From: Antarctobacter sediminis
Lineage (GTDB): Bacteria > Pseudomonadota > Alphaproteobacteria > Rhodobacterales > Rhodobacteraceae
Direction of reading: 5' to 3'
Length of the DNA stretch: 64,000 bases
Assembly (NCBI RefSeq): GCF_019218285.1
Contig: NZ_JAHUZG010000007.1
Span: forward strand, 1-64,000
Part shown: one piece after another, positions 18,351 to 44,948 of the stretch
How the letters are laid out: every line of letters starts with the position of its first letter
How positions within the stretch are numbered: position 1 is the stretch's first letter
Translations under genes and position numbers: made by a program
Notes under the pieces: model-generated
What the model saw: the letters and a program-made list of their open reading frames with translations, nothing else
Database searches by the model: none
Told to the model about the DNA's origin: nothing

Positions 18351-18384
18351 TTGGACTTTCGCCACAAATGTTCCATATTTGTTC
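18351..18384 (+). promoter_or_regulatory. SOS promoter: sigma70 -35/-10 with LexA box
   Basis: The alphaproteobacterial LexA box GTTC-CATATTT-GTTC lies at 18370-18384 with exact N7 spacing. A -35 hexamer TTGGAC at 18351-18356 and a -10-like CATATT at 18374-18379 are 17 nt apart, so the -10 lies between the two GTTC half-sites and bound LexA would block polymerase. The predicted start of transcription is around 18386, at or next to the ATG at 18387, implying a leaderless or nearly leaderless mRNA. Confidence 0.8.
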
Positions 18385-18386
18385 GA

Positions 18387-18719
18387 ATGAACTGGCCCCA
18401 TCCTCCGTCCTGTCTGCCCGCCAACCGGCTGGCCGAACCGCCTAACGGCGCGCGCATCACCGTGGCCGGGCTGGTGATCCTGCGCCAGCGCCCCGGCACC
18501 GCCAAGGGCGTGATCTTCATCACACTGGAGGATGAGACCGGCGTGGTGAACGTGATCGTCTGGCGCAAGCTCTACGAAACCTACCGCCGTGCGGTGATCG
18601 CCGGACGGATGCTGCGCGTCACCGGGCGCGTCCAGCGCGAAAACGGCGTGACCCATGTGATCTCGGAACATATCGAGGATATCTCGCCCCTGCTCGACCG
18701 GCTGCTTGACACCCCCTGA
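18387..18719 (+). CDS. Orphan DnaE2 C-terminal OB-fold domain
   Basis: 110 residues whose core (ARITVAGLVILRQRPGTAKG, then ITLEDETGVVNVIVW and MLRVTGRVQRE) is the OB fold found at the extreme C-terminus of error-prone polymerase DnaE2. The short N-terminus MNWPHPPSCLPANRL runs directly into it, and nothing upstream encodes polymerase domains. No room exists for a ribosome site: the LexA box ends 2 nt before the ATG. Either a remnant of an imuA-imuB-dnaE2 locus left with its SOS promoter after deletion, or a standalone SOS-induced nucleic-acid-binding protein. The reading frame is intact and well conserved in character. Confidence 0.8.
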   Translation: MNWPHPPSCLPANRLAEPPNGARITVAGLVILRQRPGTAKGVIFITLEDETGVVNVIVWRKLYETYRRAVIAGRMLRVTGRVQRENGVTHVISEHIEDISPLLDRLLDTP

Positions 18720-43277: not shown

Positions 43278-44948
43278 TCAGCTGTGTTCCTCTTCCGCCG
43301 TGGCGGCAAGCGCACGGTTATACGCCTTGAGCGCATCGACATGGAACAGCGCTCCCTGAAGGATCGGTTGATCTTCCTGCATCGTCACCACGGGCAGGAA
43401 GGCCACCCCGGACTTGTCGAACCGGGGCAAAGCGGTCTCCAGCGTCGCGCTGGCCTGCACGTACAACCCCTGTTCGATCATCCTCAGGCAGGCTTCTTCG
43501 TCGGCGGCATTCTCATCCGTGGGTTTGCGCATGACGCCCTGCACCCGGAACATGGCCAGAAGATAGGCCTGCGGCCCGGCGGCCAGACTGACATTACGCC
43601 GTTCCAGTTGCGTCAGGAAGAACGACCGGTCCACCAATCGGCTGGCCACCGCGGTCGACATGGAAATCGAAACCATCACCGCAAGCCCGGTCTGCCAGTC
43701 CCCGGTCAGTTCAAAGACGATCAGCGTCGTCGAGATCGGCGCGCCCAGAACCGCCGCCGCCACCGCCCCCATTCCCGCCAGCGCATATAGTGTAAAGGCC
43801 GAAGACACCTCGGGAAAGATGCCGGTGGCGATGTGGCCAAAGGTCAGCCCGGTCAACGCCCCCACCATCAACGAAGGGGAAAAGACACCGCCCCCCATCC
43901 GGCCCGCCATGGTGATCGACACGGCCACAACCTTGAGGACGGCAAAGACAAACGCCTCATGCAGAAGCAGCCCACCGGTAAGCGCGCGACTGGTCGTTTC
44001 ATATCCGACGCCGATGATGTGCGGAAAGAAAATCGCGATTCCGCCCAGCAACAGCCCGGCCACAGCTGGGCGCATCCAGTGCGGCAATCCCAGCTTGCGC
44101 TGCAAACGGGTTTCCATGTCGTCGGCAAGAAAGATTGATTGCATCATGATGACGGCAACCAACCCGCAAACAAGCCCGAGAATAAAAAACGCGGGCAATT
44201 CGAGATAGAATTCCACCGTGGTCGTGCCCGGCAGTACGAATTCCGTGACATCGCCATAGACCAGCCGGTTGATCACCGTGCCCGCCGCGCTGGCCACCAC
44301 GATGGGGGCAAAGGCATGCAGCGCAAAATGGCGCAGGATCACCTCGAGCGCGAACAAGGCCCCGGCAATCGGCGCGTTAAAGCTGGCCGACACCGCCGCG
44401 GCAACGGCACAGCCCAGCAGGTCGCGCCCGGTGATCCCGTCGACCTTCAGCGTATTGGCCACCCAGCTGGAACACATGGCCGCAATATGCACCACCGGCC
44501 CTTCCCGGCCCGTGCTGCCCCCGGTCGACAGGGTGATCCACGAACACAGCGCCGATGCGATCCCGGCCTTCTTTTCAACGCGCCCGTCGTTCAGCGCGGC
44601 TCCTTCGATCACATCCGCAACTGACCGCACCCGCCCGTCAGGGGTGGCCAGATGCAGGACGATTCCCACGACGATTCCTCCCAGTGCCGGCACCAGCAGC
44701 ACCCAGAGCCAAGGGAGACGTTCCGCGAAGGAATGCAACGATTGCAAGTCCGGCGTTCCGTAGACAAGCGTTTGCAGGGATTCGATGGCAAACCGAAAGG
44801 CGATGGCGGCCAAACCCGAGGCAAGTCCAAGCCCCAGCGCGATGAACCAGAACTGAACCTGACCGGGACCGCGATGTCGCAGCATGTCCCAGCCCCGGCC
44901 ACATCCGGCCTGAAACCTGTTGAGGTGATCGTGCAGCAGGTTCAGCAA
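43278..44948 (-). CDS. CLC-type chloride channel/transporter
   Basis: 556 residues. About 12-18 membrane helices plus a C-terminal CBS-like pair (EACLRMIEQGLYVQASATL, LPVVTMQEDQPILQGALF). The gating Glu is Glu149 in GGSTGREGP. The canonical GSGIP motif is absent; the same site reads VADVIEG. GSGIP-lacking bacterial CLCs are common in this subgroup. SFNAPIAGALFALE is the later signature. Inner membrane. Confidence 0.93.
   Translation of the reverse strand: MLNLLHDHLNRFQAGCGRGWDMLRHRGPGQVQFWFIALGLGLASGLAAIAFRFAIESLQTLVYGTPDLQSLHSFAERLPWLWVLLVPALGGIVVGIVLHLATPDGRVRSVADVIEGAALNDGRVEKKAGIASALCSWITLSTGGSTGREGPVVHIAAMCSSWVANTLKVDGITGRDLLGCAVAAAVSASFNAPIAGALFALEVILRHFALHAFAPIVVASAAGTVINRLVYGDVTEFVLPGTTTVEFYLELPAFFILGLVCGLVAVIMMQSIFLADDMETRLQRKLGLPHWMRPAVAGLLLGGIAIFFPHIIGVGYETTSRALTGGLLLHEAFVFAVLKVVAVSITMAGRMGGGVFSPSLMVGALTGLTFGHIATGIFPEVSSAFTLYALAGMGAVAAAVLGAPISTTLIVFELTGDWQTGLAVMVSISMSTAVASRLVDRSFFLTQLERRNVSLAAGPQAYLLAMFRVQGVMRKPTDENAADEEACLRMIEQGLYVQASATLETALPRFDKSGVAFLPVVTMQEDQPILQGALFHVDALKAYNRALAATAEEEHS

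Follow-up and report, generated by a model that had tools for sequence, protein, structure and literature searches.

Several DnaE2 polymerases without an OB domain have been described, and a C-terminal SRDF[H/R] motif occurs in approximately 77% of DnaE2s (Timinskas et al., 2013, PMC3919608). Division of related genes is also on record, in mycobacteria as a split cassette of imuA'-imuB and dnaE2 (PMC6511836) and in cyanobacteria as a DnaE split by an intein (PMC3919608). With regard to the OB domain itself, loop 1003-1013 and helix 1035-1043 of Escherichia coli Pol III alpha were noted by cryo-EM to contact the beta clamp, and the isolated OB domain of this subunit is reported, with reference to Georgescu (2009), to bind ssDNA; papers on the E. 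coli enzyme differ as to whether the role of the domain is clamp contact or ssDNA sensing (PMC4703070).

A separate gene for the OB domain of DnaE2 goes unmentioned in the accessible text of PMC6511836, PMC6473078 and PMC9426580, the main text of PMC6473078 giving predicted LexA sites for other genes of Dinoroseobacter shibae, a species with an imuA-imuB-dnaE2 cassette on a plasmid (PMC9426580). In a 2026 survey (PMC12926913), truncated sequences were removed ahead of tree construction, and the terms "OB domain", "OB-fold", "Rhodobacter", "Roseobacter" and "gene fission" are absent from its main text. Open-access titles and abstract openings likewise yielded no report of a separately encoded DnaE2 OB domain. 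Within this open-access scope, the division of DnaE2 into two SOS genes that is described below appears to be new, as it was not found in print.

The OB gene and its upstream region

The gene in question, at 18387-18719 on the plus strand of the window (i.e., the whole stretch of 64,000 nt that was analysed), starts with ATG at 18387, ends with a stop codon at 18717-18719 and encodes 110 residues that correspond to a detached C-terminal OB domain of DnaE2. A previous reading of the sequence alone (hereafter the sequence-only reading) had taken the product for the C-terminal OB fold of DnaE2 and nothing more, an assignment borne out by matches to NF004225 (PRK05672.1; positions 942-1039 only of the 1047-position model, E 2.5e-33) and to the Pfam OB-fold family PF01336 (E 6.6e-13; residues 24-98, 18456-18680, plus strand). 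The next-best model was that of DnaE1 (E 8.9e-09). Only OB-type domains were detected in the product by Pfam scan, the polymerase core, finger and (HhH)2 domains being missing, and the C-terminal SRDF[H/R] motif was likewise missing from the window protein. Assignment to the SSB family was rejected, the match to PF00436 scoring 15.5 bits, below the cut-off of 26.

A WPHPP sequence near the N-terminus of the protein (18393-18407, plus strand) conforms to a consensus, WPxPP, that was noted near the N-terminus of 128 of 140 solo OB proteins and in none of 40 linkers of fused DnaE2. In an AlphaFold2 model based on 83 sequences, which were drawn from 169 distinct OB sequences and replaced a run with 17 sequences (pLDDT 70), the OB protein was predicted with a pLDDT of 94.1 and an ordered N-terminus; because of this predicted order, WPxPP is probably part of the fold of the free domain rather than a loose arm. 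Alignment with E. coli Pol III alpha indicated that loop RQRPGTAKG (residues 33-41; 18483-18509, plus strand) is collinear with approximately residues 1003-1011 of the E. coli loop 1003-1013, and that residues 63-71 correspond to helix 1035-1043, the former of these overlapping a helical segment of the predicted model (residues 60-72; 18564-18602, plus strand). Within the loop, R33, Q34, R35, P36, G37, A39 and G41 were invariant in the 83 sequences. A profile of the OB protein gave no match to PDB sequences at E 0.01, the single OB sequence matched E. coli Pol III alpha only at E 0.37, and the 50 Foldseek matches listed were to OB folds of tRNA synthetase, RPA, Stn1 and other proteins, with none to Pol III alpha. 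One solo OB gene (L253, from G106), which has a LexA box and a WPRPP start, was found to encode long low-complexity repeats of the DGAALA type between WPRPP and the OB core.

Purifying selection on the OB gene was evident from dN/dS values of 0.03-0.14 in 15 pairs of six same-genus genes, a comparison that had been suggested along with the sequence-only reading; differences at codon positions 1, 2 and 3 in these pairs were in the ratio 97:62:475.

Upstream of the ATG, a -35-like hexamer TTGGAC (18351-18356, plus strand) was read directly 17 nt before a -10-like hexamer CATATT (18374-18379), and the latter is overlapped by a LexA box, GTTC-CATATTT-GTTC (GTTCCATATTTGTTC; 18370-18384, plus strand), that ends 2 nt before the ATG. 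This promoter, including its 17-nt spacer, had been described in the same terms from sequence alone, and its elements were both legible and conserved, but no promoter was called at the OB gene by a generic sigma-70 scan; a terminator scan likewise gave nothing there. In the 64-kb window, exact GTTC-N7-GTTC is expected approximately 1.95 times by chance and was found twice, and the box alone therefore proves nothing; rather, the box of the OB gene is significant because it is conserved upstream of orthologues. The second exact copy (44844-44858, minus strand) lies within a chloride-channel-like ORF, near the ORF start, and is probably a chance occurrence.

Conservation of the box was assessed at genome loci and at named loci, which share organisms and together provided 125 distinct upstream regions. 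An exact GTTC-N7-GTTC was found by script upstream of the OB start at 57 of 60 genome loci (58 when G106 is counted), no box being present before the start in G019 and G083, and at 78 of 80 named loci (the best 80 of 582 relatives), the misses being one locus that starts at a contig end (L208) and one without a box (L209). When the 125 regions were aligned, T(T/G)G was evident at -18 to -16 relative to the box, and the box itself contained TATNTT. The gap between box and ATG was 1-3 nt in 112 of 135 cases scored by script, and random placement of 18-nt windows gave a box in 2 of 5600. The nearness of the ATG to the box suggests that OB transcripts are leaderless, and the position of a conserved GTTC-N7-GTTC over the promoter, as in the LexA/SOS regulon of alphaproteobacteria, points to probable LexA binding and induction by DNA damage. 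Short orthologues with the same LexA box, the search for which had also been proposed beforehand, were thus found in many genera, in keeping with the earlier view of an intact, probably leaderless SOS-type gene as opposed to a decayed relic. Beside the OB gene, and outside the system, lies a divergent 2Fe-2S ferredoxin gene (PF00111; 17861-18184, minus strand), as is usual for the orthologues: this neighbour was present at 57 of 60 genome loci and at 72 of the 75 named loci (from the best 80 of 582) with at least 700 nt of upstream sequence.

The remaining mutasome genes and the distribution of split dnaE2

The OB domain was found once in the genome to which the window belongs (G000). That no polymerase, imuA or imuB gene lies next to it, as the sequence-only reading had stated, is true locally, yet all three occur elsewhere in the same genome. 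A DnaE2 body is encoded at G000:C2:419516-422389, on a contig other than that of the OB gene, by an open gene that covers model positions 5-939 and then reaches a stop codon; ImuB is encoded at G000:C2:1461114-1462760 and ImuA at G000:C3:260072-260560. G000 thus encodes ImuA, ImuB and a DnaE2 core in addition to the OB protein, the four genes lying at four separate places with no contiguous imuA-imuB-dnaE2 operon, and a physical ImuA-ImuB-DnaE2-OB complex with a role in induced mutagenesis may be formed from their products. The Pfam content of the G000 body was pol3_alpha, finger and HHH_6 without OB, and that of the fused DnaE2 of G009, a genome from another genus, was the same three domains plus OB and a weak PHP match. 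An intein split was rejected, as no intein family was found in Pfam scans of the OB protein and body, and so was an assembly error hiding the rest of dnaE2, the body having its own stop codon in the 57 genomes read and its own box in 55.

A DnaE2 that ends near model positions 938-962 was found in 18 of 61 relatives, and exactly these 18 carried a solo OB piece; most shortened bodies end near 938-940. One of the 18, G014, was rejected as a split genome, leaving 17: on a contig of 217,585 bp, its body extends to position 217,569 and its OB piece begins at base 18, so that the pieces fit a circular plasmid cut open. Co-occurrence of the two halves was then evident from 149 Rhodobacteraceae genomes of at least 97% completeness, each representing a different genus. 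A shortened body was present in 64 of these and a solo OB gene in 63; both halves were present in 62 genomes, the body only in two (G071 and G090), the OB gene only in one (G078) and neither in 84, the corresponding Fisher p of approximately 2e-38 resting on an assumption of independence between genera that does not hold. The 84 genomes with neither half comprised 72 with full-length DnaE2 only (including G014 and G169, both of which also carry cut pieces), 10 without DnaE2, all of them also without the OB gene, and two with broken pieces (G111 and G115). The OB pieces of G169, G111 and G115 were treated as broken cassettes. Split and full-length DnaE2 were found together in one genome of this survey, G062, and G005 likewise carries both kinds.

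Three genomes argue against a strict dependence of either half on the other. G078 (L124 and L324; completeness 100 in about 7 contigs) lacks a DnaE2 body but carries the OB gene with its box and ImuB, while G071 and G090 have the body and ImuB without an OB gene, an absence that is possibly an assembly gap because these assemblies consist of about 100 and 490 contigs. A stop codon is crossed by 10 of the 64 body matches (by that of G110 twice), and in G006, G029 and G032 this stop marks where the gene ends. The body match of G018 (L027) falls in two overlapping frames, covering model positions 6-93 and 88-939, and this copy may be broken by a frameshift or the sequence misread.

No clear solo OB gene was noted outside Rhodobacteraceae in a class-wide set of 193 genomes; OB matches there in frames shorter than 700 residues (G339, G351, G213, G316 and G287) are candidates only, and the short-frame matches within Rhodobacteraceae were those of G000 and G185. 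Named genera with a solo OB gene, from the best 80 of 582 relatives, include Mameliella, Salipiger, Roseivivax, Shimia, Ruegeria, Marivita, Roseovarius, Tropicimonas, Gemmobacter and Maritimibacter. Counts of boxes, tails and motifs refer to 60 of 70 solo-OB genomes (all but G067, G074, G102, G110, G121, G123, G141, G173, G178 and G185) and counts of bodies to 57 of 70 split-body genomes (all but G067, G074, G102, G110, G116, G117, G121, G123, G141, G147, G173, G175 and G178). Among the best 30 of 828 plasmid records, matches to the OB protein were at most 66% identical, 25 being annotated as error-prone DNA polymerase and five carrying no annotation; from these annotations, full-length DnaE2 of Rhodobacteraceae appears often to be plasmid-borne.

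Dispersal of the genes and the presence of LexA-type boxes were shared features of split genomes. In the first survey, imuA and imuB were separate genes in all 17 split genomes; imuB and the body gene are divergent neighbours in G036, and in the others the four genes are distributed over different contigs or separated by tens of kb. GAAC-N7-GAAC was noted before imuB in 17 of 17 genomes and before imuA at all 12 loci examined (12 of the 17 genomes read). A LexA-type box preceded the body gene in 55 of 57 cases; the corresponding counts were 2 of 40 for fused genes and 112 of 2850 for random windows. Most of the body-gene boxes were GAAC-N7-GAAT (40) or GAAC-N7-GAAC (11), and most were located 49-57 nt before conserved SNFTF codons; the body of G018 was scored as a miss, yet a box was visible on reading, and that of G106 shows none. 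A further observation concerns ImuB of the main split clade (e.g., L033:2795-4444 of G036 and L074 of G000), which contains an extra 40-45 residues or so at about positions 158-203 of the query. This segment, missing from the matches seen to ImuB of genomes with full-length DnaE2, of G106 and of G182, may have co-evolved with the split.

Descent of the split gene

When 97 DnaE2 cores were placed in a tree with the OB columns excluded, 56 of 57 split bodies formed one clade with support of 1.0, and the other, that of G182, paired with the full-length DnaE2 of G022. An IQ-TREE run on 40 of the 97 rows agreed with this tree; the OB tree had too few columns to tell one fission from several, and that of G182 may be a second event. 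In G182 (L213:3500-5470), the OB gene lies 955 nt behind the body gene, with its own GTTC-N7-GTTC box and a WPRPP start, and its product still ends, as does fused DnaE2, in HPRDQAKRLFPSRDFH, which contains the SRDFH motif. This motif was missing from all 57 bodies read and, among 140 solo OB proteins, was present only in that of G182. G106, which branched deepest within the main clade in the 40-row tree, has HPRDQSKLLF near the end of its OB protein, and the ferredoxin neighbour was missing at the OB genes of both G182 and G106. G182 appears to preserve an intermediate stage of gene fission, and the features of G182 and G106 fit a course of events in which fission occurred in place, leaving the old tail on the OB half, and was followed by relocation and loss of the tail. 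Fission of dnaE2 is well supported.

Twelve of the 57 bodies (G000-G005, G025, G075, G090, G135, G155 and G164) end in or near HPR(N/D/S), and these HPRN, HPRD and HPRS ends (L016 and 11 others) resemble the stretch before SRDFH in fused DnaE2. In G009, which has full-length dnaE2, this gene is on a contig other than that of imuA and imuB, themselves about 11 kb apart, and dispersal of the cassette may therefore have preceded the cut in dnaE2. The full-length DnaE2 of G022 (L063) has a GSGSGS-type linker where its relatives are split, which could reflect linker expansion or re-fusion.

Proposed function of the separate OB domain and comparison with known systems

Since the same genomes carry a DnaE2 that lacks exactly this domain, the OB gene is most simply explained as encoding the second part of an error-prone polymerase split in two, its product quite probably acting in trans with DnaE2, ImuB and the clamp. 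On this explanation, an ancestral Rhodobacteraceae dnaE2 would have been cut so that the C-terminal OB domain was separated from the polymerase core and (HhH)2/clamp-binding region, and the OB part would have acquired its own LexA-box promoter and N-terminal WPxPP segment, become a separate gene and ended up, as a rule, beside the ferredoxin gene. Likewise, imuA, imuB and the shortened dnaE2 are single genes elsewhere with LexA-type boxes, and inactivation of LexA upon DNA damage would de-repress all four together. The OB protein would then bind in trans to the DnaE2-ImuB-clamp assembly, resuming its former place, where it would provide the contact with the clamp and/or ssDNA that is made in cis by the OB domain of Pol III alpha, and would presumably contribute to mutagenesis.

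That the OB protein is an exchangeable, separately dosed clamp/ssDNA handle, passed between DnaE2-ImuB and other clamp users, is conceivable if unlikely. Were this so, the other users could include replicative Pol III or the ImuB system of G078 that lacks DnaE2, the free domain would control access of lesion bypass to the clamp, and a two-piece C-family polymerase would exist without an intein.

The stand-alone nucleic-acid-binding protein proposed in the sequence-only reading is in accord with the short, boxed orthologues in many genera, but this proposal overlooked the matching OB-less DnaE2. Departure of the domain from DnaE2 to become an independent SOS-induced ssDNA-binding or replication-fork protein, no longer associated with DnaE2, would account for its predicted ability to fold alone with high confidence, for a WPxPP segment unseen in fused DnaE2, for the loss of the SRDFH tail except in G182 and for the OB gene kept by G078 without a body. 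Such independence is nevertheless improbable, given that both halves are present in 62 of the 65 genomes with either, that none of the 10 DnaE2-free genomes has the OB gene and that the clamp-contact loop and helix are retained. Far less probable is a free OB domain that serves as an inhibitor or timing device, competing for the clamp or ssDNA so as to end the work of the shortened DnaE2 and limit mutagenesis; a conserved contact surface and a LexA-type box like that of the polymerase gene would suit such a device, but a positive role is favoured by the fused DnaE2 of sister genera, in which this domain is present in cis, and the pattern is explained without any competitor. Lastly, a relic or recent deletion, also entertained in the sequence-only reading, by which the promoter of a lost imuA-imuB-dnaE2 cassette was joined to the dnaE2 tail, fits the local picture of a tail and promoter without an adjacent cassette but is scarcely credible in view of the same arrangement in 62 of 149 genera, with its box and ferredoxin neighbour recurring across many of them, the purifying selection on the OB gene and the presence of imuA, imuB and the body gene elsewhere in the genome.

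With the OB gene thus regarded as one half of a split polymerase, a large part of Rhodobacteraceae (62 of the 149 genera sampled) seems to use a two-gene DnaE2, which surveys of polymerase polypeptides would register as truncated, and the SOS cassette is seen broken into four single-gene LexA-box units. The split may also be regarded as a natural experiment on the role of the OB domain in C-family polymerases, because this domain can be deleted, titrated or swapped separately with the polymerase untouched.

Among known systems, the OB domain of E. coli Pol III alpha resembles the solo OB protein in its clamp-contact loop and helix, which are collinear with those of the latter, but it works in cis and is not known to belong to the SOS cassette. 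The OB-less DnaE2s of PMC3919608 are similar to the shortened bodies in that the polymerase polypeptide stops before the OB domain and different in that the missing domain is not reported in the consulted text of that paper as a separate gene. In the mycobacterial split cassette, as in Rhodobacteraceae, mutasome genes occupy more than one locus; the former, however, is split between genes whereas the latter is also split inside dnaE2. Intein-split DnaE is likewise a DnaE-family polymerase encoded in two pieces, but these are rejoined by the intein, whereas the OB protein and body are without an intein domain by Pfam. The ImuA-ImuB-DnaE2 (ImuABC) SOS mutasome has in common with the split system homologues of all three proteins, LexA-type boxes, the DnaE2 core and the (HhH)2 region. 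It differs from the split system in that the genes of the latter are dispersed and its DnaE2 is in two pieces, the OB half having its own LexA-box promoter and WPxPP segment and having lost SRDFH outside G182.
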